Part shown: positions 9,702 to 50,929 of the stretch, piece after piece
Layout: each line of letters opens with the position of its first letter
Position numbering within the stretch: the first letter of the stretch is position 1
The notes under the pieces: generated by a model
The model's input: only the letters and a program-made list of their open reading frames with translations
Told to the model about the DNA's origin: nothing
Databases searched by the model: none
From: Sulfurospirillum diekertiae
GTDB lineage: Bacteria > Campylobacterota > Campylobacteria > Campylobacterales > Sulfurospirillaceae
Reading direction: 5' to 3'
Assembly (NCBI RefSeq): GCF_002309535.1
Contig: NZ_CP023275.1
Coordinates: 1,364,001-1,428,000, forward strand
DNA: 64,000 nt
Translations under genes and position numbers: made by a program

Positions 9702-9727
9702 AACTATCTTTACATGTAAAGATAGTT
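9702..9727. terminator. 26-base perfect palindrome built on TTTACATGTAAA, between convergent genes
   Basis: The palindrome CTTTACATGTAAAG (9708-9721) is extended on both sides by AACTAT/ATAGTT to a perfect 26-base inverted repeat. It begins 2 bases after the ankyrin stop and ends 4 bases before the stop of the TolC-like gene on the other strand. Its position suggests a terminator for both directions. The fully self-complementary centre needs a small loop. Confidence 0.7.
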
Positions 9728-36916: not shown

Positions 36917-36987
36917 TAATCGTATCCTTTTTATATTCCTATTATCTGTTGTAAAGTATGATGGGCAATCAATTTAAAAGGAGTGAG

Positions 36988-39096
36988 ATGAAAAGTAAGA
37001 GTTTGTATATCTCATCGCTTGCACCTGCTGCAGGCAGCTTGATCGTAGCGATGGGCATTATGGAACTATTAAAAGGGCGTCTTGGTAAGGTTGCTTTTTT
37101 TAGACCGGTTATTTTAGATGCGAATGAAGTTGATAAAGACATTGATTTCATGCTGGAATATTATGCCCTTAAAATGGACTATAACGCTACTTATGGTTAC
37201 ACTGTTCATGAAGTTGAAAGTTTAATTGCTGAAAATAAATACAATGAAGTTTTGGAAAATCTTATTGATAAATTCAAAATTTTAGAGAGCCAGTATGACT
37301 TTGTACTCATTGAAGGACTTAACCAAGCGAATTTTTCACAAACTCTTGATTTTGATATTAATCTTTCAATCGCTAAAAACTTGAGTAGCCCTTTTATCAG
37401 TGTTCTTAAAGGGAAGCAAAAAAGTGTTAAAGAGGTGTTAGATGAAATATCTATTGAGGCAGAAGCTATTAAAGGTGCTGGATGTCAGCATTTTGCGACC
37501 TTTGTCAATCGTTTAGGTGAACAAGAGGTTCAAGAGCTTAAAGAGCTCAATCGTGCCAAACCAATTCAAAATGTTCCTGTCTATTTTTTACCTGAGGTGC
37601 CAGAGCTTGACACTCCGACTGTTGCTGAGATAAAAAATAAGCTAGGTTGTTCCCATATCTATGGTGAAGAAAAAGATTTACGTAGAGTTGTCAAGCAGAG
37701 TAAAATCGCTGCAATGAAACTTGATAATTTTTTAGAATATATTGAAGATGGTGACTTGGTCATAACTTCAGGCGATAGATCCGATATTATCGTAGGATGT
37801 CTTAGTACCGTATCTTCTAATAATTATCCAAACATATCTGGCATTTTGCTGACTGCAGGGATGATGCCTCATAAATCCATTAACAAGCTTATCGCTGGAT
37901 TTAAAGACCTTTCCATTCCTATTTTAAGTGTCGACAATGGTACCTTTGATACGGCTGTCAATGTCTCCAATGTTCCAGCGACCATTACACCACAAAGTGT
38001 ACGAAAAATTGCATTGGCAATGGGACTTTTCTCTTCAAATGTCAATATTGAAGAAATCGAAAAAAGTATTGATACTGAATCTGCTACGAGTTCTATTACT
38101 CCGATTATGTTTGAATACGCTCTTTTTGAACGCGCAAGGAGAAATCGCAAAAAAATTCTTCTTCCTGAGAGCAATGATGAACGTATTCTTCGTGCAACGG
38201 AGATTTTACTTCGTCGTGATGTAGCTGATATTATTCTTTTAGGCGTTGAAGAAGAAGTACGTCGTAAGAGCGCAACGCTTGGACTTGATATTAGCAAAGC
38301 GACGATCATCGATCCTTTAACATCACCTCTAATGGAAGAGTTTGTCACTTCTTTCTATGAAATGCGCAAAGCAAAAGGCTTGAGCTTAGATGTTGCTCGC
38401 GATAGTATGATGATGAAAAATTATTTTGGAACGATGATGGTTTACCTAGGTTATGCTGATGGTATGGTTTCTGGTGCAATTCATACAACCCAAGAGACAA
38501 TTCGTCCAGCACTGCAAATCATTAAAACCAAACCAGGCATTTCGATTGTTTCGAGTCTTTTCTTTATGTGCTTAGATACAAGAGTCTTAGTTTACGGTGA
38601 TTGTGCCGTCAATCAAGATCCAAATGCTGAAGAGTTGGCACAAATTGCCATTTCTTCTGCCGATACGGCTAAGATATTTGGCATATCTCCAAAAATTGCA
38701 ATGCTCTCGTATTCTACAGGTGATTCAGGTAAAGGTGAAGAGGTCGAAAAAGTGCGTTTAGCCACTAAAATTGTTAAAGAAACACGACCTGATCTTTTGG
38801 TAGAAGGGCCAATTCAATATGACGCTGCAATTGATCCTATTGTTGCTAAAACAAAATTACCAAATAGTAAAGTCGCTGGTGAAGCCACCATCTTTATTTT
38901 TCCAGACCTAAATACAGGTAACAACACCTATAAAGCCGTTCAAAGAAGTTCAGGTGCCGTTGCCATTGGTCCTGTGCTACAAGGACTTCGAAAGCCCGTT
39001 AATGATCTCAGTCGAGGTTGTTTAGTTCCCGATATTGTCAATACCGTTGCCATTACAGCTATTCAAGCACAAACCAATGATGGAGCCAATAAGTGA
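36988..39096 (+). CDS. pta: Phosphate acetyltransferase, long form
   Basis: Interconverts acetyl-CoA and acetyl phosphate. It has 702 residues from ATG 36988, supported by AAAAGGAG upstream; an in-frame ATG 30 bases earlier lacks one. The long form has a BioD-like N-terminal domain (about 1-200), a DRTGG-type regulatory domain (about 210-320) and the catalytic domain (about 370-700: RKKILLPESNDERILRATEIL, SMMMKNYFGTMMVYLGYADGMVSGA, GKGEEVEKVRLAT). ackA overlaps the end, and flgH is near as in Campylobacter. Confidence 0.95.
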   Translation: MKSKSLYISSLAPAAGSLIVAMGIMELLKGRLGKVAFFRPVILDANEVDKDIDFMLEYYALKMDYNATYGYTVHEVESLIAENKYNEVLENLIDKFKILESQYDFVLIEGLNQANFSQTLDFDINLSIAKNLSSPFISVLKGKQKSVKEVLDEISIEAEAIKGAGCQHFATFVNRLGEQEVQELKELNRAKPIQNVPVYFLPEVPELDTPTVAEIKNKLGCSHIYGEEKDLRRVVKQSKIAAMKLDNFLEYIEDGDLVITSGDRSDIIVGCLSTVSSNNYPNISGILLTAGMMPHKSINKLIAGFKDLSIPILSVDNGTFDTAVNVSNVPATITPQSVRKIALAMGLFSSNVNIEEIEKSIDTESATSSITPIMFEYALFERARRNRKKILLPESNDERILRATEILLRRDVADIILLGVEEEVRRKSATLGLDISKATIIDPLTSPLMEEFVTSFYEMRKAKGLSLDVARDSMMMKNYFGTMMVYLGYADGMVSGAIHTTQETIRPALQIIKTKPGISIVSSLFFMCLDTRVLVYGDCAVNQDPNAEELAQIAISSADTAKIFGISPKIAMLSYSTGDSGKGEEVEKVRLATKIVKETRPDLLVEGPIQYDAAIDPIVAKTKLPNSKVAGEATIFIFPDLNTGNNTYKAVQRSSGAVAIGPVLQGLRKPVNDLSRGCLVPDIVNTVAITAIQAQTNDGANK

Positions 39097-40304
39097 AAAT
39101 TTTAGTCTTAAATGCGGGTAGTTCTTCTGTTAAATATCAACTTTTCAATATGGCCAATAATGAGGTTTTGGCCAGTGGCGTGATTGAACAAATTGGTGAA
39201 AAAGAGTCAATGGCTAAAATAAAATATAAAAAATCAGCCGGAGATGAGCAAAAAAGAGAAGAAAAATGCTCTATCCATGACCATGATGCAGCCTTAACAT
39301 GGATGAGTGAGGCATTGATTCAATCAGGCGTTATTCACAACCTTAATGACCTTGATGGCATTGGTCATCGCGTTGTTCAAGGTGGCTCTTCATTTCAAGA
39401 GCCAGCGATGGTTGATGACTATGTGATGTCAGAAATTGAGCGTTTAATTCCACTTGGGCCATTGCATAATCCTGGGCATCTTGCGGGTATGAAGGTTTCG
39501 GTACATCAAAGCCCTAATGTTCCTCAAGTGGCTGTTTTTGACACGGCATTTCATTCAACATTACCTAATTATGCTTACATGTATGCTATTCCTTACAAAT
39601 ACTATGAGGAGTTACGCATTAGACGTTATGGTTTCCATGGAACTTCACACTATTACGTTACTAAAGTAGCTGCGAAGTATTTGAAACAAGATATTAATAC
39701 GCTTAACGCTATTACGCTTCATCTTGGTAATGGTGCAAGTGTTGCTGCGATTGAAAACGGTCAAAGTGTTGATACATCGATGGGCTTAACACCATTAGAA
39801 GGTCTCATTATGGGAACACGAAGTGGTGACCTTGATCCGGCTATTCTTTTCTATTTAGCGCGTAAACGTGGACTTACTCTCGATGAACTGGATAAGATGC
39901 TCAACAAAGAGAGTGGATTAAAAGGTATTTGTGGGAGCAACGATATGCGTGAGATTACGCGTATGGCAGAGGAGGGTGATGAAAGAGCACAGCTTGCCTG
40001 TGACATGTTCAATTATCGCCTTAAAAAATACATTGGTTCTTATTCCGCTGTTCTTGGACGGGTAGACTGTATTATTTTTACAGGAGGTATTGGCGAAAAT
40101 GCAAATGATGTTCGCCTCAAGTCTTGTGAAAAATTAGAGAATTTTGGTATTAAAATCGATCCAATCCTCAATAGCGTTCGATCAAGTGAAATTAGAACGA
40201 TTAGTGCAGATGATAGCAAAGTAAAAGTTTTGGTTATCCCAACCAATGAAGAGCTTGAAATTGCAATAGAAACTTTGGAAATGATCCAAAAGCATCACTC
40301 GTAG
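39093..40304 (+). CDS. ackA: Acetate kinase
   Basis: Interconverts acetyl phosphate plus ADP with acetate plus ATP, 403 residues. Signatures are VLNAGSSSVKYQLF at the N terminus, RRYGFHGTSHYYV, LHLGNGASVAAI, TSMGLTPLEGLIMGTRSGDLDP and the GGIGENA segment near the C terminus. The GTG start overlaps the pta stop by 4 bases. Two copies of the TTTACATGTAAA palindrome follow the stop as an inverted pair. Confidence 0.97.
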   Translation: MKILVLNAGSSSVKYQLFNMANNEVLASGVIEQIGEKESMAKIKYKKSAGDEQKREEKCSIHDHDAALTWMSEALIQSGVIHNLNDLDGIGHRVVQGGSSFQEPAMVDDYVMSEIERLIPLGPLHNPGHLAGMKVSVHQSPNVPQVAVFDTAFHSTLPNYAYMYAIPYKYYEELRIRRYGFHGTSHYYVTKVAAKYLKQDINTLNAITLHLGNGASVAAIENGQSVDTSMGLTPLEGLIMGTRSGDLDPAILFYLARKRGLTLDELDKMLNKESGLKGICGSNDMREITRMAEEGDERAQLACDMFNYRLKKYIGSYSAVLGRVDCIIFTGGIGENANDVRLKSCEKLENFGIKIDPILNSVRSSEIRTISADDSKVKVLVIPTNEELEIAIETLEMIQKHHS

Positions 40305-40311
40305 AATATGT

Positions 40312-40344
40312 GTTTACATGTAAAGATTTTCTTTACATGTAAAC
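40312..40344. terminator. Inverted pair of TTTACATGTAAA palindromes between convergent ackA and the YqeY gene
   Basis: GTTTACATGTAAAG (40312-40325) and CTTTACATGTAAAC (40331-40344) are exact reverse complements separated by 5 bases, giving a 14-bp stem. A T-rich stretch follows on the plus side. It begins 8 bases after the ackA stop and ends 7 bases before the stop of the convergent gene. It contains two exact copies of the repeat, at 40313-40324 and 40332-40343. Confidence 0.85.
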
Positions 40345-40351
40345 CTCTTTT

Positions 40352-40798
40352 TTAGCTCAAAAGTTCTTTCGCAATTGTATTAATACGTTTACCATCAGCG
40401 ACACCTTCGCATTCAGCAAGAACTCCAGACATAATCTTACCAATTTCTTTTAAACTCGTTGCCCCCGTTGCAAGAATATGCTTTTGAATGATAGCTTTAA
40501 GATTCTCATCACTGAGTTGTTGTGGTAAATAACTTTTTAAAATGGTTGCTTCTGCCAACTCTTTTTCATAAAGATCAACTCTTCCTGCATCTTTAAAAGC
40601 AGATAAGGCATCTTCACGTTGCTTGAGTGATTTTTGGATAATCTTTACAATATCAGAATCACTCAGTTCTTTACGTTCATCGACTTCAATTTGTTTAAGC
40701 GCACTCATCAAAAAACGGATGACATCACGTTTAAAAGTATCTTTGGTTTTCATCGCATCTTTTAGATCATCTTGAAGTTTTGATTTGAGTTCTGACAT
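40352..40798 (-). CDS. GatB/YqeY domain protein
   Basis: A 148-residue YqeY-family protein, related to the tRNA-binding tail of the GatB amidotransferase subunit. Family features are SELKSKLQDDLKDAMKTKDTFKRDVIRFLMSALKQIE, QREDALSAFKDAGRVDLYEKELAEATILKSYLPQQL and EIGKIMSGVLAECEGVADGKRINTIAKELL. Function of the stand-alone form is unproven; a link to tRNA amidation is family-based guesswork. It is divergent from flgH. Confidence 0.92.
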   Translation of the reverse strand: MSELKSKLQDDLKDAMKTKDTFKRDVIRFLMSALKQIEVDERKELSDSDIVKIIQKSLKQREDALSAFKDAGRVDLYEKELAEATILKSYLPQQLSDENLKAIIQKHILATGATSLKEIGKIMSGVLAECEGVADGKRINTIAKELLS

Positions 40799-42059: not shown

Positions 42060-42087
42060 ACTTTGCCTTTACATGTAAAGGCAAAGT
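42060..42087. terminator. 28-base perfect palindrome built on TTTACATGTAAA, between convergent genes
   Basis: The repeat core (exact copy at 42068-42079) is extended by ACTTTGC/GCAAAGT arms to 28 self-complementary bases. It starts 5 bases after one stop codon and ends 8 bases before the opposing one, with T-rich sequence on the right. This is the same design as at 9702-9727 with different outer arms. Confidence 0.8.
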
Positions 42088-42095
42088 TATATTTT

Positions 42096-43337
42096 TTATG
42101 ATTTCACGGCTTTTGCCATATCCCACATAGGCATAAAAATACCTAGAGCCATCAAAAGTACCATTGCAGCAATAAAGCCTAGGAGAATAGGCTCAATATA
42201 ACTAGCGATATTATCAATAATTTGACTAAAACGTGATTTAAAATAGAGCGTTACTTTTTCAAGCATTTTATCGAGCGTTCCACTTTGTTCGCCTGCTTGA
42301 ATCATTTGGATAAGCATCCCTTCAAAAAGCCCTGTATCACGGAATGATTCCGTTAATGAAATACCTCTTTGTACGGAAATTTTAACACTGGAAAGTTTCT
42401 TTTTTAGATGGGTGTTTTCTAGCGTTAATAAAGCTGTATCGAGTGCATCAGCAATAGGAATACCCGCACGAATAAGTTCTGTAAAAACTAGACAAAAACG
42501 GCTCAGTGTTGCATAAAAAATAATATCACCGATGAGATAAACTTTAAGAATATAGATATCAAATTTCTTTTTGAACTCTTCATTATTTTTAAGCAGATAT
42601 TGAAATAATATTATAGTACCTACAATACCTATTAAAAGGTAAAGACCATAATGATTGATAAGGTTTTCCATAAAAAGAAGGATTTTTGTTGGTAAAGGGA
42701 GTTCCGCTTTAAGTTGGGCAAAAATTTCTTTAAATTTTGGAACAACGTAAATCATGAGTATTGAAAAAGCAATCGCAATCGCAATAACCACAGTAATAGG
42801 ATAACGCATCGCTTTTTTAAACTTTTGTCTATTTTCTTCAATTTCTTCAAGGATTTCTGAAAGTTTTTCTAAAGATTCTGCCATATTTCCTGTGCTCTCT
42901 CCCAACTCAACCATAGCAAGAGTCACATCGCCTACTTCATTGCGATATGTCATCAATGATTGAGTAAGGCTAAGTCCAGAGTTTAGATCATCATTGACGC
43001 TGTTAAATATTTCCTTCAGTGTCTTGTCCACGGTTGCATTAGCAACTTCTTTAACACTATCATGAATAGAAATACCTGCATTGGTCATAACACTCAATTG
43101 TCTCATCGCTGCAATAAGGTTTGGCATTTTGATTTTTTTACGAAAAAGAGCATTCACCATTTGATTTTTGAGTTCGCCTAACTGGTCTTCAAGGGGTGCA
43201 GAAGTTTCTTTAATATTTAAGATGACTCCTGGAATTTTTAATTTTGCAATGGCTATTGCATCATTTCGTGTGGGTGATTTGACAACAGTTTTAGTCTTTT
43301 GCCCTTTAAATAGGTAGTTTACTTCAAAGTATTTCAT
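42096..43337 (-). CDS. ctsF: Type II secretion/type IV pilus inner membrane platform protein (CtsF/GspF-like)
   Basis: Polytopic platform protein of the GspF/PilC family, 413 residues, with two copies of the T2SSF domain (about 70-190 and 270-395). Membrane helices are near 165-195 (RYPITVVIAIAIAFSILMIYV), 225-250 and 385-408. Characteristic parts are MRQLSVMTNAGISIHDSV, ALAMVELGESTGNMAESLEKLSE and MIQAGEQSGTLDKMLEKV. It overlaps the ATPase gene by 4 bases. The order F-E-X-P-D-R follows the Campylobacter cts competence genes as I recall them; MshG would be an equally good structural parallel. Confidence 0.88.
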   Translation of the reverse strand: MKYFEVNYLFKGQKTKTVVKSPTRNDAIAIAKLKIPGVILNIKETSAPLEDQLGELKNQMVNALFRKKIKMPNLIAAMRQLSVMTNAGISIHDSVKEVANATVDKTLKEIFNSVNDDLNSGLSLTQSLMTYRNEVGDVTLAMVELGESTGNMAESLEKLSEILEEIEENRQKFKKAMRYPITVVIAIAIAFSILMIYVVPKFKEIFAQLKAELPLPTKILLFMENLINHYGLYLLIGIVGTIILFQYLLKNNEEFKKKFDIYILKVYLIGDIIFYATLSRFCLVFTELIRAGIPIADALDTALLTLENTHLKKKLSSVKISVQRGISLTESFRDTGLFEGMLIQMIQAGEQSGTLDKMLEKVTLYFKSRFSQIIDNIASYIEPILLGFIAAMVLLMALGIFMPMWDMAKAVKS

Positions 43338-45085
43338 TCTTTTGCCACCCTTATGATTTCATCTAGCGTTGTAATGCCATGTGCAGCTCTCGTAATACCA
43401 TCTTGGAACATATCAACAAAACCTTCTTTGATTGCTTGCTCTTTAATATCACTTTTACTTCCACCTTGGGCAATGATACTTGAAATTTTTTCACTGATTG
43501 GAAGGATTTCTGAGATCATTTCACGACCTAAATAGCCTGTTTGTGAACATTTTTCACAACCATTGTTTTTATAAAACTGAAAATTTTCAGGAAGCATATT
43601 TTGGATTTCATCGTGGGCAGTTTTGGGTAATGTATATTTTGTTTTACAATAAGGACATAATTTACGGACTAATCTTTGTGCTTCAATCGCAATTAATGAC
43701 CCACTAATAAGATAAGGTTCAATTCCCATGTCTACAACTCTTGTTACGGCACTTATAGAATCATTTGTATGGAGTGTTGAAAAGACTAAGTGACCTGTGA
43801 GTGCTGCTTGTACAGCAATACGGAGAGTTTCAGTGTCACGAATCTCACCAATCATAATAATATCTGGATCTTGTCTTAAGATAGATCGCAATGCTGTAGC
43901 AAATGTAAGATTGGCCTTTTCATTCACTTGTACCTGTTGCGTTAAATTGAGTTGGTACTCTACTGGGTCTTCAACAGTAATAATTTTACTTTGTACACTT
44001 TTAATAGCATTTAAAGCAGCATAAAGCGTTGTTGTTTTACCACTTCCTGTAGGCCCTGTCACTAAGATAATACCATAAGGAGATTTCATTGATTGAGCAA
44101 ACTTACTATAGTTATTTGGATGCATACCAAGGTCTTCAATTTTAATCATGACTTTTGATTTATCTAAAATACGAATCACAATGGATTCACCATTGATTGT
44201 AGGTAGCGCAGAAATCCTAAAGTCATACTCACGACCTAAAATAGTAGCTGAAAAACGGCCATCTTGGGGTTTTCTTTTTTCAGCAATATCCATGTTGGAA
44301 AGTAACTTCATTCGTGAACCTAGAGGAGGGTATATATCTTTGTCAAAAATAAATGTTTCAGTAAGCATGCCATCAATACGGCTTCGAACAATACAATTAT
44401 TTTCTGTTGGTTCAATGTGAATATCACTTGCCCGCGCAAGAATAGACGTTTTAAGAATAATCTCAATAAGTTTTAAAATTCCAGAAGATTCTTGCGGATT
44501 TTCAGCAGCACTAGAAGTAATCTCTTTGCGAATTTCGCCAATGAGTCCTTTAATACTTTCACCTAACTCCATTTTAATTAGGTATTTATCAATTTGTGTA
44601 GGCTCTGCAATAATAACTTTGAGTAGTTTTCGTGGAAAAATTCTTTGAACGCCCTCTTGAGCATTGATGTCTAATGGATCTTGTAATGCAACAAAAATAT
44701 TAATCTCATCTTCCTTAATAGGAAGCGCTTTAAATTTTTTAAGTTGAGCAAAAGGAAGTTTTGATGCAAGGCGATAATCAATGTCTATTGAATCAAGATC
44801 AAGGTACTCATAATTAAGATTTTTAGCCAAAGATTGTAAAAATTTTTCACTGTCAATTGCAAAATTAGCGTTAACATCTTCTAAGTTTAAGTACCCTTTT
44901 TTGAAAAATTCAATGACTAAAATAAGAAGGTCTTCTTTTGTAAAAAAATTATTTTCTAAGAGAATTTCGCCTAATACTTTATGATTATTTTGTTGTGTTT
45001 CTTCTCTTATTTTAGCAGCACTATGTTCATCAATTATACGATTGTGAATAAGATATGTTAAAAGTGTTGTTGTAATATCATTCAT
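43334..45085 (-). CDS. ctsE: Type II secretion/type IV pilus assembly ATPase (CtsE/GspE-like)
   Basis: Hexameric assembly ATPase, 583 residues. An N-terminal MshEN/GspE-N-type domain (about 1-170) is followed by the ATPase domain: Walker A GPTGSGKTT (near 344), the Asp box ITVEDPVEYQL, Walker B IIMIGEIRDTET and the His box HTNDS. A four-cysteine zinc motif (CPYCKTKY ... CEKCSQTGY) lies near 490-530, typical of assembly rather than retraction ATPases. No second PilT-like ATPase is in the window. Confidence 0.92.
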   Translation of the reverse strand: MNDITTTLLTYLIHNRIIDEHSAAKIREETQQNNHKVLGEILLENNFFTKEDLLILVIEFFKKGYLNLEDVNANFAIDSEKFLQSLAKNLNYEYLDLDSIDIDYRLASKLPFAQLKKFKALPIKEDEINIFVALQDPLDINAQEGVQRIFPRKLLKVIIAEPTQIDKYLIKMELGESIKGLIGEIRKEITSSAAENPQESSGILKLIEIILKTSILARASDIHIEPTENNCIVRSRIDGMLTETFIFDKDIYPPLGSRMKLLSNMDIAEKRKPQDGRFSATILGREYDFRISALPTINGESIVIRILDKSKVMIKIEDLGMHPNNYSKFAQSMKSPYGIILVTGPTGSGKTTTLYAALNAIKSVQSKIITVEDPVEYQLNLTQQVQVNEKANLTFATALRSILRQDPDIIMIGEIRDTETLRIAVQAALTGHLVFSTLHTNDSISAVTRVVDMGIEPYLISGSLIAIEAQRLVRKLCPYCKTKYTLPKTAHDEIQNMLPENFQFYKNNGCEKCSQTGYLGREMISEILPISEKISSIIAQGGSKSDIKEQAIKEGFVDMFQDGITRAAHGITTLDEIIRVAKE

Positions 45086-45148
45086 TTTTTACCACTATTT
45101 ATAAATTTTTCTATTGTACCATTTATTAAAAGAAGAAAACAAATTCAT

Positions 45149-46030
45149 TTAGTCAATGACTTCACCTACACTAATTTGATTTAGTAGGCTTTGGGCTGCT
45201 TTGGATTTATTACTTTTTAAGTAGGCTTGAAGTGCAAGGACTGCATCTTCTTTATGACCAAGTTTAACTTTAGATTTAGCAAACCAGATCCAACTTTTTT
45301 CACTATCTGGATCTACATTGTTAGCCATAAGAGCCCATTTATTACATTCAGTATAGTTTTTCATTGCATAATATTCTTCTGCGAGCATTAATGCAAAAGT
45401 AATGTTGTGTGTTTTCTCAAATTTATCTTTAAGATATTGTACAGAATTTACCTCATGCGTCTCAATTTTTATAAGACCCTTTGGTTTTGGTTCATCTAGT
45501 AGAGGAGGGGGCAAAAGAGCTGTGTCAACTTTGTCCTCTTTATTGCGATAAAAATTTTCATCATCAATAGTTGGCATTTTACGCATTAAAACTTTATTGT
45601 CAAGTTCTTCTTCTTGAATACCAAAATTTGTTTTTTTCTCAGGAGTTTCTGGTATATAAGAGGACTTTTTTTCTGCTTTATTTCTATTAATAGTTGGAAG
45701 TTGGAGAAAAAGTGTTTGATTTTCTTGTTCATTCATCACAATAGGTGGAGTATATTTCTTCACACCAATATTCACATCAGGAACATTTAAGGGCTGTTCT
45801 TGAATACTAGTACTGTTAGTATCAAGAGGTTTTATTGTTTCTGCTGTTGTTTGAACATCAGATAATGACGTATTGGTATCTGTCCCATGAATAATCGTAG
45901 GATAAGAGTAAATGGCAATAGCCCCTATTAGTAAAATAATGACACTAATAATGATGTAATGTATTCTTTGTTTAAGTCTATATTTGAAGACTCTTTTTTC
46001 GAGCTCCATAATTTCTACAGCACTAAGCAT
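45149..46030 (-). CDS. Membrane-anchored protein with C-terminal TPR-like region (CtsX/MshN position)
   Basis: A 293-residue bitopic protein. A cytoplasmic segment of about 20 residues precedes one membrane helix (about 22-45, IHYIIISVIILLIGAIAIYSY). A low-complexity periplasmic stretch rich in Thr, Asn and Pro runs to about 200, and a TPR-like helical end follows (FALMLAEEYYAMKNYTECNKWALMANNVDPDSEKSWIWFAKSKVKLGHKEDAVLALQ). The place between the CtsE and CtsP homologues corresponds to CtsX of Campylobacter; the TPR end rather recalls MshN. Its job in the machine is unknown. Confidence 0.75.
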   Translation of the reverse strand: MLSAVEIMELEKRVFKYRLKQRIHYIIISVIILLIGAIAIYSYPTIIHGTDTNTSLSDVQTTAETIKPLDTNSTSIQEQPLNVPDVNIGVKKYTPPIVMNEQENQTLFLQLPTINRNKAEKKSSYIPETPEKKTNFGIQEEELDNKVLMRKMPTIDDENFYRNKEDKVDTALLPPPLLDEPKPKGLIKIETHEVNSVQYLKDKFEKTHNITFALMLAEEYYAMKNYTECNKWALMANNVDPDSEKSWIWFAKSKVKLGHKEDAVLALQAYLKSNKSKAAQSLLNQISVGEVID

Positions 46031-46832
46031 GGATCATTCCTAGACTTATACCTGCCATTTCAATATATTTTACATGTAAAGCATTTGTTTTGATAAGGGA
46101 GGGTTGATGCATATCGTAATATTCCAAAATTTCAAAAAGTTTGTACATTAGTTTATTAATAGTTCTCAAATTTCCATCCGTAACTTTTAAAATAAGTTTA
46201 TAGTGCTTATCTCTAAAAAGGTTGAGATATTCAAAGCGATTATGGAAGAGGAGTTTTTTTTCAATATATGTTTTAATTTCATTCTTTGAAGCATTGTCAA
46301 TTTCAATTGTTTCCCAAATACGTGTCTGAAAATAGTCTTTAGCTAAAACATCTTCTTTTTCTGTTTTATGAACCGTAAATAAAAATTTAAATAAACGCGA
46401 ATCTGCCATCAGACGAATTTTTTCAATCAAATCTGTTGGATAAAGCTGTGCTTCATCAATTAATACGGTAATAGATTGATCTGTAGATGTAATATGCTTG
46501 CTTAAGAGTGCTAAAAATTCATTGTAATTTGAAAATCCAGGAGATTTCTTTGCAAAAATATGCTCAAACAATGCATCAATAAAAACTTTTTCTTCAAAAA
46601 AAGGTCTTGGAAAAAAAATAATCCGTTTTTTTGTTCTTAAATCATTAAAAATTTTTTGGAGTAAAAAAGTTTTACCCGTTCCTGGCTTGCCATAAAAAAG
46701 GATTAACTTTAGAGGTTTATCTAAAGTCTGTACCAACTTATCATACGTTGTTGCAGACTTATCAAGATTGACATAATCAAAAACTTCACCATCAACAAAG
46801 ATAGTTTTAAGATCACTGTAATGGCTATTCAT
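46023..46832 (-). CDS. ctsP: AAA ATPase of the secretion cluster (CtsP/MshM/ExeA-like)
   Basis: A 269-residue AAA-type ATPase. Walker A is GKPGTGKT (48-55), Walker B is ITVLIDEAQ (121-128), and FLFTVHK is a sensor-like segment. The C-terminal helical part is KVTDGNLRTINKLMYKLFEIL. Proteins of this class (ExeA, MshM, CtsP) help assemble or position the machine at the membrane; no membrane helix is seen. It overlaps both neighbours by 8 bases. An exact palindrome copy is read as ALHVKY near its C terminus. Confidence 0.85.
   Translation of the reverse strand: MNSHYSDLKTIFVDGEVFDYVNLDKSATTYDKLVQTLDKPLKLILFYGKPGTGKTFLLQKIFNDLRTKKRIIFFPRPFFEEKVFIDALFEHIFAKKSPGFSNYNEFLALLSKHITSTDQSITVLIDEAQLYPTDLIEKIRLMADSRLFKFLFTVHKTEKEDVLAKDYFQTRIWETIEIDNASKNEIKTYIEKKLLFHNRFEYLNLFRDKHYKLILKVTDGNLRTINKLMYKLFEILEYYDMHQPSLIKTNALHVKYIEMAGISLGMIHA
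46069..46080. repeat. TTTACATGTAAA palindrome, exact
   Basis: Inside the CtsP-like gene, minus-strand reading LHVK; the only exact copy within the secretion cluster. Confidence 0.93.
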
Positions 46833-48369
46833 TTATCTTTTGACTGTACCCAAGATCTTTAAGTGTTGCTTTATCTGTGCCTTTTGCTCCGATAATACGT
46901 GGTGTGATTACAAAAACAAGTTCATTGCTAGACAATGTATCAGCCGAATGTTTAAAGGCTTCTCCCAGCAGAGGAATACTACTGAGTAGCGGTACACTCG
47001 TATCTTGTTTAGATTTATTATTTGTTATAAGACCACCTAAAATAATCGTTGAGCCATCTTTAACTTTTACAACTGTTGAGAGTTTTTTCTCAGAAGTATC
47101 TGGTGCAATAACTCTAGGGTCAGTCGTTTTAACATCATCTGCTGTGTATTTAAACGTACTAACAGATGGATTTATCCTAAGAATAATTTCATTGTCTTCA
47201 GAAATTTCAGGAGTAATATTCAAAAGAACACCAATAAAAATAGAATAATTAGTATAGGTTGTTGCCAATGTAGCGGTTCCAGTTGTGCTAGCTGCATTGG
47301 TTGTTTCAGGAACACGGTAATTAACATTATCACCAATAGTAATGAGTGCTTGTTGATTATTCATTGTTAAGACTTTTGGACTAGATACAACTTTTGTTTC
47401 ACCACTTGAACCTAGAAAATCAATCAGTCCTGCAATAGAAAAAGATACGTCATTGACAACTGTTAAATTATTGAGATTGCTTGATGCATTTGCAGTACCA
47501 GTACTGGCTGAATTATATAAAGTATTTGGATTGCTAGCAGATAATGTTCCTTGATTGCTGTTGTTAAAAATAGAGTTACTACCAATATTTAAAGAAAATT
47601 TACTCCAATCAACACCTGATGTATTACTATTATTTAATAATACTGAGACAATTGAAACATCAATTAACACTTGCCTATGAAGTCTCTCTTTAAGTACATC
47701 TATATATTCACTGACACGGTCTAATTGCCTTTTTGTAGCTGTAACAGTAATCATACCTGCATTGATATTGATAATAGGTGATTGTGCTTTATACGTTTCA
47801 CCTCCCGTATTTAAAACGGAGGTAAGTTCTGTTGCAATAGTTTTCCAAAAATCAAAAGATTCATTTGAAGAAATTGTATTTTGACCTTGTGTTGCTGTAT
47901 TTTTTGTGCCACTGGTACTTGTTTCAGTCGGTGTAGCATCGACTGAAGCATTGATAACCGCTTTACCTTCTCGAATTGATGAAATGTAATCTACTTTAAA
48001 AGATTTTGTTGATAAAGCTGAAATCTTTAAATAGTTCTTATCATAAGTATAAAAAAGATCATTATCTTGAATAATTATTTGAAAAACTTCATCCAAAGAG
48101 AGATTTTTGATATTAACCCCATTAAGATTTTTAGCAAGCACCTTTTCTGCTTCAGTATCTTTGACAACAATACTAAAATCACAAACTTCTGCAAGCTCGC
48201 CTAAAAGTTCTAACCCTGTTGCTTTGTTATTTGTTTTAATGTTAAATGTACGATACTCACATGATGAACGATTATTTTTTTCTGCTGCATGTAAAGGCAA
48301 AAGAGCAATCGTGAAAACTGCAACCAATGCAATAATTTTACTTGGAAAATATTTTAATATTGCTATCAT
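46825..48369 (-). CDS. ctsD: Outer membrane secretin (CtsD/MshL/GspD-like)
   Basis: Ring-forming outer membrane channel of a type II secretion/type IV pilus system, 514 residues. A signal peptide (ends near LLPLHA) is followed by an STN-like domain (about 35-110, NLNGVNIKNLSLDEVFQIIIQDNDLFYTYD), a serine/threonine-rich linker, secretin N domains, and the secretin barrel domain (about 310-505). The barrel carries VVSSPKVLTMNNQQALITIGD, the GGLI segment and the closing SVPLLSSIPLLGEAFKH and LVFVITPRII. It overlaps the upstream small gene. Confidence 0.92.
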   Translation of the reverse strand: MIAILKYFPSKIIALVAVFTIALLPLHAAEKNNRSSCEYRTFNIKTNNKATGLELLGELAEVCDFSIVVKDTEAEKVLAKNLNGVNIKNLSLDEVFQIIIQDNDLFYTYDKNYLKISALSTKSFKVDYISSIREGKAVINASVDATPTETSTSGTKNTATQGQNTISSNESFDFWKTIATELTSVLNTGGETYKAQSPIININAGMITVTATKRQLDRVSEYIDVLKERLHRQVLIDVSIVSVLLNNSNTSGVDWSKFSLNIGSNSIFNNSNQGTLSASNPNTLYNSASTGTANASSNLNNLTVVNDVSFSIAGLIDFLGSSGETKVVSSPKVLTMNNQQALITIGDNVNYRVPETTNAASTTGTATLATTYTNYSIFIGVLLNITPEISEDNEIILRINPSVSTFKYTADDVKTTDPRVIAPDTSEKKLSTVVKVKDGSTIILGGLITNNKSKQDTSVPLLSSIPLLGEAFKHSADTLSSNELVFVITPRIIGAKGTDKATLKDLGYSQKINE

Positions 48370-48754
48370 CTTTTGTCCTTATTACAAGTTCTTTTTTTTC
48401 AATTTCATTCTGAAGAATAACACTATTGCGTGTAATTTTTATTAGCATATAAGATCCTATAAGATCATTTTTTTTGTACCAATTACCATTTATTTTTGCT
48501 TTTTGATCAAAAGTAGCTTCTAAAACATAAGTAGATGCTTGTGCGGTTGCATTGTTTTCACTCTCATTTTGTTCTGAAGAAAGAATAATAAAAGGATTTT
48601 CGAGCTTATCAATCATAATCGAATCAGCACCTGATCTTCTTTCCGCAATTTTTTCAAAAATTTTATCATACTCTTTGACTTCACTGCTCGCAGGCAATTT
48701 ATCTTGTGCTTCTATAACAGTAAACATAAGCAATAATCCTAAAATAGGCTTCAT
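48338..48754 (-). CDS. Small exported protein of the secretion cluster (CtsR/MshK/PilP position)
   Basis: A 138-residue protein with a signal peptide (MKPILGLLLMFTVIEAQ). ATG 48754 is preferred over a TTG 27 bases upstream that would overlap the previous gene. The C-terminal half is a small beta domain (YVLEATFDQKAKINGNWYKKNDLIGSYMLIKITRNSVILQN) resembling the PilP/GspC-HR/MshK fold that contacts the secretin. By position it corresponds to CtsR. Similarity is in pattern, not detailed sequence. Confidence 0.7.
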   Translation of the reverse strand: MKPILGLLLMFTVIEAQDKLPASSEVKEYDKIFEKIAERRSGADSIMIDKLENPFIILSSEQNESENNATAQASTYVLEATFDQKAKINGNWYKKNDLIGSYMLIKITRNSVILQNEIEKKELVIRTKDDSNIKIFSK

Positions 48755-48762
48755 TAAAGTTT

Positions 48763-49410
48763 TCAATATTTCATCCCCCAAACAGCAATATTGAATTGAC
48801 CCTCAATATCTTTTTGACCTGTACAGTTGAGCTCATAAATATCAACAACCAATTCACTTTCTTCGATAGCATTCATATACTTCATTGTATTGGCGAAAGA
48901 ACCATTAAAAGAAACTTTTAGAGTTAAAATTTGCTCTATTTTTTGAATACTTGGCTCGTTGATTTTATTTTCAATAACTTTAATACGAACAGAATATTTT
49001 TGTGCCAATTGGCTAATTGTATTAAGAAATTTTGCCCAATTTTCATCATTGAATAACAGATAGGAGAGATCTTTGAGTTTATTATCTACGTAATCATTCA
49101 TATAAATTGTTTTTTCTAAAAGGAGTTTAGAATTTTCAATATCTGACTTAACTTTTTTAATTAAAAAAGTTGCATCTCCATCTCTCGATACAGAAGTCAA
49201 GTAAGCTTGTTCATCATGAAGCTTCTTTTCAATGTCTTTTGCACTTCGCATTGACTGATTCAATATTTTTTCTGTTACAGGATAAAGATAGCTGTAGAAA
49301 ATAAATCCAATGACGACAAAGGCCATCGCAAAAATTAAGTAAATTTCGTTATTTTTTTTATCTTTAAAAAAAAGATCAATTTTATCTAAAAGTGAATCAA
49401 TACTATTCAT
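48763..49410 (-). CDS. PilO/MshJ-like inner membrane assembly protein
   Basis: A 215-residue bitopic protein: a short cytoplasmic N terminus, one membrane helix (about 24-45, IYLIFAMAFVVIGFIFYSYLYPV), a coiled coil to about 120, and a ferredoxin-like beta-alpha domain (VRIKVIENKINEPSIQKIEQILTLKVSFNGSFANTMKYMNAIEESELVVDIYELN). This plan is that of PilO/GspM/MshJ. It overlaps the upstream gene by 8 bases. I do not recall a counterpart in the published Campylobacter cts set. Confidence 0.78.
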   Translation of the reverse strand: MNSIDSLLDKIDLFFKDKKNNEIYLIFAMAFVVIGFIFYSYLYPVTEKILNQSMRSAKDIEKKLHDEQAYLTSVSRDGDATFLIKKVKSDIENSKLLLEKTIYMNDYVDNKLKDLSYLLFNDENWAKFLNTISQLAQKYSVRIKVIENKINEPSIQKIEQILTLKVSFNGSFANTMKYMNAIEESELVVDIYELNCTGQKDIEGQFNIAVWGMKY

Positions 49411-50929
49411 TGCTCAATCCTATAGAGATTTTACTGGTATAGAGTTTAATCTTGTCATCCTGTATAATCTTTTCCGTATTGACTTTATATTTTTTTAGAG
49501 CTGTTAAATCTTTAATAAATTCTGTAATCTTTTTTTCATTTTTATTTCGAACAAAAAAATCAAGTTGCTGGTTTTTGAACTCAATTGCCTCGACTTTACA
49601 ACCATTTTGATTTGAAAGCTGAAATATTTCTAGTAGCATTAGTGCTTTCATAGGATATGATATTTTTTTATTATAAATTTCACTTAAAAGCTTTTTTCTA
49701 AATTCAAACTTCGTTGTTTCATTCTTAACCAAACCATCAACTTTTTCTTTCTCAGTTTTTAAAAGAGATAGTTGTTGCCTGATATCAGATGTCTGTTTGT
49801 ATAACTCATTATACTCACTTGTCTGTTTTACAATTATCAAACTTAAAAAAGTATGGTATGCAAATTGATAAGCAGGATATGCGAGACTAATAATAACACT
49901 TGCTGCCATAATGCCAAGAAATTTTCCTGAAGCTCTGTATTTAAGAGGAGGGGGTCTTTTATAAATGGAAAAATTAAGATTATCATCTGGATTTTCAATA
50001 TAAAGTTGTGCACTAAGCATCATCAAAATATGAATTTGATCAATATACCACTCTTTGGAATTAATCGCTATACTAAAATTAAATTCATATGACTCTAATC
50101 CGAGATAGCTTTTCCCATATTCTTCAATACCCGAAAAAGTACCAATCTCTGATCCTAAATAGATTTTATCAATAAAATCTATATTGTAAGAACGTTTTGT
50201 AAAAACTAATACATCATTAATATAAAGGAATATCTCACCAAAAAGCTGCATTAAGCTTTGTTGATATTGGCTATTGGTAGCTCTTAATCCCTCATTAGTA
50301 AGAAGTTTATAGAAATCTTCTTCATCAATACGCTCGCCGATCAGTTCACAAAATTTTTCATTAATCTCTTTTAATGAATAATGAAGTGATTTAGAATAAA
50401 CATATTCCCCATTTTTGTAAATTGCTAAAAAAGCATCTGTCTTTTGGAAATAAACAAAACAGTGTGTTCCATCTGCTTCAATAAAATTTTTGCGATATAA
50501 AGCTTTAATGAGAAAAGGTGCAGAGGTTACATAATCAATATAACGTGTTTTCTCTTTAATGGGTGTCAGTTTTGTATAAATAAGTGTTGCATCAATAATA
50601 AAAACATTAAAAGAGCGATTTTTAGAATCTTTTGATTCTGTTTCAATATAACTTATAGAGTATTCGATGGCAGAATCAAGGGCTAATTCATCATATACTT
50701 TTATTTCAATAGCATCTTTAAGATCGCTATCAGGAATATTCCGACTTACATCAATAGTAGCACTAATAACATCACGTGTTTGAAGATATGAGGTATAAAA
50801 CGCATTCTTATCACTTTTTTCTAGTTTGTTAAGTTTGATTTCATTTTTTGAATAGGTATAAGAGACAAGTGATAAAGGGTCTATTGATACAATTTCTGAG
50901 CTAAAACGTCTATCCTCAGTTACGGCCAT
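49403..50929 (-). CDS. PilM/PilN-like (MshI-type) assembly protein, both parts in one chain
   Basis: A 508-residue protein. The first ~330 residues look like a divergent actin-fold PilM/GspL cytoplasmic domain (VVIDATLIYTKL-like segment, FCVYFQKTDAFLAIYKNGEYVYSKS, DKIYLGSEIGTFSGIEEY). A single membrane helix follows (about 335-360, FLGIMAASVIISLAYPAYQF), then a PilN-like periplasmic coiled coil and small domain. Systems that split these into PilM and PilN would need two genes. It is the first gene of the secretion cluster, 58 bases after the era stop. Confidence 0.75.
   Translation of the reverse strand: MAVTEDRRFSSEIVSIDPLSLVSYTYSKNEIKLNKLEKSDKNAFYTSYLQTRDVISATIDVSRNIPDSDLKDAIEIKVYDELALDSAIEYSISYIETESKDSKNRSFNVFIIDATLIYTKLTPIKEKTRYIDYVTSAPFLIKALYRKNFIEADGTHCFVYFQKTDAFLAIYKNGEYVYSKSLHYSLKEINEKFCELIGERIDEEDFYKLLTNEGLRATNSQYQQSLMQLFGEIFLYINDVLVFTKRSYNIDFIDKIYLGSEIGTFSGIEEYGKSYLGLESYEFNFSIAINSKEWYIDQIHILMMLSAQLYIENPDDNLNFSIYKRPPPLKYRASGKFLGIMAASVIISLAYPAYQFAYHTFLSLIIVKQTSEYNELYKQTSDIRQQLSLLKTEKEKVDGLVKNETTKFEFRKKLLSEIYNKKISYPMKALMLLEIFQLSNQNGCKVEAIEFKNQQLDFFVRNKNEKKITEFIKDLTALKKYKVNTEKIIQDDKIKLYTSKISIGLSNE

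Follow-up and report, generated by a model that had tools for sequence, protein, structure and literature searches.

Two copies of a palindrome that recurs throughout the chromosome lie as an inverted pair in the short gap between the convergent genes ackA and yqeY of Sulfurospirillum diekertiae, and the question raised by this locus is whether the pair ends transcription there and why such a repeat should be found in that position. The locus belongs to a stretch of 64,000 nucleotides, referred to here as the window (1,364,001–1,428,000 on a contig of 2,814,086 bases), and all coordinates below are those of the window.

The ackA–yqeY junction element

The features of the junction are as follows.

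36958–39096: pta, preceding ackA
39093–40304, + strand: ackA, acetate kinase (PF00871), the upstream gene
40312–40325, + strand: left arm, GTTTACATGTAAAG, containing the 12-mer copy 40313–40324
40326–40330, + strand: loop, ATTTT (AAAAT, that is, inverted, in the relative G308)
40331–40344, + strand: right arm, CTTTACATGTAAAC, containing the 12-mer copy 40332–40343
40348–40353, + strand: T6 run after the stem in the ackA direction, overlapping the yqeY stop codon
40352–40798, − strand: yqeY, the convergent gene (PF09424)

Read directly, the 33-base element at 40312–40344 has the form GTTTACATGTAAAG-ATTTT-CTTTACATGTAAAC with 14 perfect pairs; direct reading and folding thus confirmed the original prediction of an inverted pair of exact copies with a 14-bp stem and a 5-base loop, and its placement between the end of ackA (40304) and the opposing yqeY stop (40352) was likewise correct. 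The stem starts about 7–8 bases past the ackA stop, yqeY ends 7 bases beyond the stem on the other strand, and the stop codons of the two genes are 47 bases apart. Each arm holds one TTTACATGTAAA, the exact unit shared by the arms; this 12-mer is itself palindromic, so any two adjacent copies make an inverted repeat, and the order of the arms is set solely by the flanking G and C letters.

The predicted fold adds one A-U pair, giving a stem of 15 bp and a loop of 3. The hairpin of the + strand has a predicted energy of −17.5 kcal/mol, compared with a shuffle mean of −4.04 (z −6.8; 0 of 200 shuffles as stable), and that of the − strand −18.1 kcal/mol, so that stability is equal on both strands. 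The stem is A+T-rich, with 4 G-C pairs. The sequence following it in the ackA direction is CTCTTTTTTA, and a terminator scan detects the site; reading of the junction sequence gave no T run past the stem in the yqeY direction. A search for known RNA families returned no match at the hairpin and, in the window, only a tRNA elsewhere.

We consider that the 33-base element acts as a factor-independent terminator of the pta-ackA transcript, chiefly of ackA, and perhaps as a weaker barrier to yqeY transcripts, and assign this reading a probability of about 0.75. The pta-ackA RNA would fold into the 14–15 bp stem, the U run past the stem would weaken the RNA-DNA hybrid, and the polymerase would be released. 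The arms of the hairpin would be two copies of a chromosome-wide palindrome that owes its preservation to something else, probably to being a site of DNA recognition, and an abundant self-complementary palindrome could readily supply the arms or the tip of gene-end hairpins.

A palindrome dispersed through the genus

The 10-mer TTACATGTAA is present in 1,211 copies in the genome, compared with 7 for the reversed control, and the 12-mer TTTACATGTAAA in 774 copies, compared with 0. In a sample of 264 kb out of 2,814 kb, consisting of the preselected 64-kb window and ten 20-kb stretches picked by coordinate before their content was seen, TTACATGTAA was the most over-represented 10-mer, with 108 sites; its two-strand count of 216 compares with 0.73 predicted by an order-3 Markov model. 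It also ranks top among over-represented 10-mers in samples of the congeners G208, G247 and G123, and is nearly absent from G146 (3 sites per 200-kb sample). Copies of the 10-mer across 24 genomes of the genus range from 49 (G146) to 1,496 (G247), and a survey of 298 genomes from the class showed high counts, with few exceptions, solely in the genus and some of its family, the remaining genomes having 0 to 3 copies. Raised counts of TTTACATGTAAA were also observed outside the family of the genus, in another family of the order (G129, 86; G116, 21; G186, 14; G163, 8).

Exact copies outnumber all one-mismatch variants combined (0.000413 vs 0.000153 per position in 1.1 Mb pooled), and the extended consensus on both sides, TTACATGTAA-A-G-[AC]-TTTTT, is the same for intragenic copies. 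The palindrome is perfect and without orientation, and equal counts on the two strands follow by construction. The G and C at the outer edges of the copies, pointed out in the original prediction, are present at this junction, but they proved to be extensions that adjoin the unit in about half of all flanks, G reaching 0.56 two places past the 10-mer. A variant “dialect”, TACATGTAGA, was considered as the dispersed repeat of the relatives and rejected, since it is not over-represented (0 to 5 counts per sample). No prior paper on the motif was found in the open-access literature, which was covered for the 10-mer and the 12-mer themselves, for uptake sequences and palindromes of Sulfurospirillum and for uptake signals of Campylobacter.

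The persistence of individual copies was followed by aligning the window with its counterparts in six relatives (27 sites, those lacking full alignment being left out). Intragenic copies were identical at 15/17 sites in G308, 16/17 in G056, 14/15 in G234, 13/15 in G264, 13/15 in G123 and 0/17 in G146, and the identical fractions of intragenic control 10-mers of equal G+C were 0.54, 0.71, 0.23, 0.13, 0.13 and 0.18, respectively. At 77% identity, 13 of 15 intragenic copies persist compared with 13% of controls. Binomial tests give p = 2e-10 to 4e-10 for retention in G264 and G123, and p = 0.035 for the disappearance of copies from G146. When more sites were compared, with G056 as the only partner, 76 of 79 had been retained, the figure for flanking 10-mers being 0.74. 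Because intragenic copies are preserved beyond the controls, the dispersed copies must be held by something besides protein coding or termination, and the palindrome is a strongly preserved DNA signal and a putative recognition site; this site preservation is strong enough to justify a functional search. In its behaviour the palindrome resembles uptake sequences or elements of the HIP type, and any such function is putative.

The congener G146 (L083–L092, L257–L260), at approximately 81% nucleotide identity, has lost all 22 aligned window copies and holds 49 in its genome, and the loss of copies there appears no slower than that of control words.

Copies and gene ends

The location of copies relative to genes was determined in the 264-kb sample using home-made, uncurated gene calls (a codon score over open reading frames), whose errors are inherited by the junction classes. 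Within genes lie 68 of the 108 copies; per kb, the numbers are 5.70 for convergent junctions, 1.49 for codirectional junctions, 0.66 for divergent junctions and 0.30 for genes, so that convergent junctions are 19 times as dense as genes, and their difference from divergent junctions has p = 1e-5. A copy is present at 14 of 22 convergent junctions. The samples of G247 and G123 show the same pattern, and G208, with copies at 0 of 14 convergent junctions, counts against a general rule; the four motif-bearing samples pooled give 3.38 copies per kb at convergent and 1.11 at divergent junctions (p = 4e-5).

The T frequency just after copies is 0.38–0.46 at gene ends (94 gene-end relations in four genomes) and 0.31–0.40 within genes. 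The T-tail was rejected as proof of a terminator, because this excess is weak and is confounded by the T-rich stretch of the extended motif.

Conservation of the junction hairpin

The gene yqeY adjoins ackA in 24 genomes of the genus, 23 of which were aligned across the junction (22 distinct rows); G109 (L023), omitted for an insertion after the hairpin that lengthens the junction, keeps both palindrome copies there. The stem is retained in all 23 aligned members, with 92.2% of cells paired. Both sides have changed at 8 of the 14 pairs, in 21 cells compared with 6.0 in shuffles, and the covariation score of the stem is 0.226 against 0.109 (sd 0.015) in shuffles; none of 500 shuffles reaches it, a figure that is not a probability, as the shuffles ignore relatedness. 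Every slid register gives less covariation than the true one. The dominant stem forms are TACATGTAAAG..CTTTACATGTA and TACATGTAGAG..CTCTACATGTA, which differ by the exchange of an A-U for a G-C pair, each arm having changed (7 of 22 distinct rows).

Pairing also survives the breakdown of the motif itself. In G316 the CATG core is gone from both arms (ATATGTAGAGA..TCTCTACATAT; ATATGT..ACATAT), and in G317 the motif is broken at another position (CCATGT..ACATGG), with pairing intact in both; indeed, most relatives are without two exact sites at ackA–yqeY (TTACATGTAG / CTACATGTAA). T-tails at the junction are not conserved: several relatives lack them or have them on the opposite side. Unrelated hairpins occupy the same junction in G307 and G195, outgroup genera of the family. 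Since an ACATGTA-like stem is found in all genus members read and the outgroup hairpins are unrelated to it, the motif-like stem probably originated close to the root of the genus, to be altered afterwards by paired substitutions.

Template switching, rather than selection, can also keep the arms of an inverted repeat alike, and this caveat applies to the paired changes. The 5-base loop is ATTTT in this genome (L016) and in G056, and AAAAT in G308 (L017), an exact inverse, as if it had been flipped, which suggests that template-switching events may happen here. As a separate observation, in G109, G247 and G234 (L023, L024 and L025) a stretch of approximately 60–120 bases containing extra inverted repeats separates the hairpin from the yqeY stop.

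Hairpins at other convergent junctions

Two further convergent junctions of the window carry hairpins that include a single copy of the palindrome.

42060–42087, no strand assigned: second convergent-junction hairpin, ACTTTGCCTTTACATGTAAAGGCAAAGT, with a CATG loop (junction 42055/42096)
9702–9727, no strand assigned: third convergent-junction hairpin, AACTATCTTTACATGTAAAGATAGTT

At the junction 42055/42096 the hairpin is kept in relatives with varying tips, and G146 keeps it without the motif. Among the 20 convergent junctions of this genome that measure 220 bp or less, 12 have a strong hairpin, and 7 of these contain the motif, where length would predict 3.7; a further 4 junctions have the motif without a strong hairpin; copies at junctions are mostly single and lie within a longer hairpin. 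G146 has strong hairpins at 15 of 19 convergent junctions and the motif in 1. The constant feature of convergent gene ends in the genus is therefore the hairpin, and the motif is the variable part. Where the motif is plentiful, the palindrome would come to form part of gene-end hairpins by virtue of its abundance and self-complementarity.

These observations bear on the original claim that the repeat had been recruited for termination. The terminator-like hairpin past ackA, the other pairs in the genome and the covariation in the genus support its terminator part; convergent pairs, which number 16 where copy density gives 14.6, do not show that pairing itself was selected. The claim is better put in the form that convergent-junction hairpins are kept with or without the motif. 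Taken as a whole, the earlier interpretation is partly supported, and its reading of the ackA–yqeY hairpin as a terminator is largely supported.

Close pairs and alternative explanations

A search of the genome for other paired copies, suggested together with the original prediction, found 47 pairs within 30 nt, compared with 16 expected for uniform copies. The 33 pairs with a spacer of up to 14 nt, whose classes were counted by hand after removal of duplicates, comprise 16 convergent, 13 codirectional, 4 intragenic and 0 divergent pairs, where local density predicts 14.6, 4.5, 3.2 and 0.4, respectively; the sole class in excess is thus that of codirectional pairs. The intragenic share is 4/33 for close pairs and 68/108 for all copies (p = 2e-7). 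Convergent pairs were accordingly rejected as proof of selection for pairing, density alone giving nearly the number observed.

The spacing of pairs is uneven. A spacer of 12 nt, or 22 bp centre to centre, is found in 12 of 34 pairs of this genome (p = 3e-7), in 33 of 109 typed pairs of three genomes and in 172 of the 674 pairs with spacers of 0–16 nt in 24 genomes, where a flat distribution would give 1 in 17; over the 24 genomes, such pairs exceed flat expectation more than 4-fold, and their inner bases are free to vary. With 12-nt spacers the stem is lengthened by AG..CT and the 8 inner bases are mostly unpaired; 10- and 11-nt spacers are often fully complementary (GGATTTTTCC), which makes a longer stem. 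For USS pairs, Kingsford et al. account for spikes in spacing through overlapping extended motifs (PMC1852404). The preferred spacing observed here could reflect such overlap or a protein reading two sites two turns apart.

The strongest alternative to termination is that the element consists of two adjoining sites for a putative protein, such as an uptake receptor or a nucleoid protein, the hairpin being a by-product that ends no transcript. The motif is palindromic, as dimer sites often are; intragenic copies, where a terminator would be unwanted, are nearly all kept (13/15 in G123 and G264, controls 13%); pair spacing peaks at 12 nt with an inner 8 bases that are mostly non-complementary; and convergent pairs match copy density. 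We nevertheless regard this alternative as unlikely for ackA–yqeY, because most relatives lack two exact sites there and all keep the stem, hairpins persist in motif-poor G146, and divergent junctions carry copies at a far lower density than convergent ones; moreover, extended-motif overlap would also yield preferred spacings, as PMC1852404 argues for USS.

A distinctly less probable alternative is that the hairpin acts after transcription, marking the 3′-end of the ackA or yqeY mRNA or protecting it from exonucleases, with termination taking place elsewhere or through Rho. Paired changes conserve the stem, the T run is not conserved, and the hairpins are equally stable on both strands, all of which would fit such a role; against it, the T6 run directly follows the stem in this genome, and with only 47 bases between the stop codons the transcript ends must be near on both strands. 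Chance or low-complexity coincidence, to which the A+T-richness of the region might lend itself, is already refuted by the shuffles (0/200 fold as well), the 1,211 copies against 7 of the reversed control and the conservation in the genus.

Factor-independent termination of pta-ackA thus remains the preferred reading for the junction, and a broader proposal may be attached to it for the dispersed copies, one that we hold tentatively and at somewhat less than even odds. Sulfurospirillum would possess a genus-wide palindromic signal, TTACATGTAA with AG[AC]TTTTT on both sides, that has a putative trans-acting reader and is selected at nearly all sites, including those in genes; G146 would have lost the reader and then the copies, its gene-end hairpins staying in place, and pairs spaced 22 bp apart, a distance of two helical turns, may represent a further functional form. 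If this is true, Campylobacterota would have their first element akin to uptake sequences or HIPs. The genomes of the genus, with 49 to 1,496 copies, offer a natural experiment, since the reader could be identified through a gene whose distribution follows copy number.

Comparison with known systems

The hairpin resembles ordinary intrinsic terminators in its stem, short loop and T run, and differs from them in that the stem is low in G+C and is made from a dispersed repeat.

Palindromes that are highly iterated in the majority of a clade's members but almost missing from others are also known from cyanobacteria, namely HIP1 and the alternate HIPs, which PMC4390886 describes as GC-rich and as linked with methyltransferases that match them. 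The palindrome of Sulfurospirillum is, in contrast, A+T-rich, and CATG outside it is not over-represented by eye. A Dam-like methyltransferase (PF02086) was rejected as a HIP-type partner, since its occurrence does not track copy number: it is present in G146 and absent in G239 (934 copies). The repeat is not classified as a HIP, because no partner methyltransferase was found, PF02086 being the sole family tried.

The closest parallel is with the DUS of Neisseria and the USS of Pasteurellaceae, the two groups with DNA uptake sequences for which repeat-built terminators are documented (PMC1852404, PMC2397512). Those repeats, as presented there, are likewise short and number about a thousand; hairpins arise from close pairs and lie mostly between convergent genes, hardly ever within genes, and at preferred spacings; and a weak extended motif has an A/T stretch that can act as a tail. 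The original comparison with inverted uptake sequences serving as terminators in Neisseria points to a real parallel, which extends to the Pasteurellaceae. The differences are that the unit in this member of the Campylobacterota is an A+T-rich, perfect palindrome without orientation, whereas the DUS and USS sequences quoted in PMC1852404 are non-palindromic and occur in two orientations; that its junction copies are mostly single and lie inside a longer hairpin; and that its convergent pairs follow density, whereas those of N. meningitidis are enriched beyond it according to Kingsford et al. (PMC1852404). The repeat is not classified as a DNA uptake sequence, because the known ones are oriented and this one is not, and a role in uptake is putative.

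Two observations touch on uptake genes. ComEC (PF03772) is found in 23 of the 24 genomes of the genus, including G146, and a competence gene was accordingly rejected as the explanation of motif loss. Next to yqeY, an operon on the − strand (42096–50929) encodes T2SSF, T2SSE with an MshEN domain, an AAA protein and a secretin, a type II secretion or pilus-like set with a possible role in DNA uptake; it is intact in G146, without stops, as far as covered, and L123 of G308, the homologue of 48763–49410, gave a partial tblastn match with one stop, possibly a broken gene of the secretin operon.

As regards mode of action, the DUS and USS terminators offer a good parallel. The Sulfurospirillum palindrome would add a third, unrelated case of a repeat-built terminator, with a palindromic unit, and it raises the question of whether use in hairpins follows from any abundant self-complementary signal.
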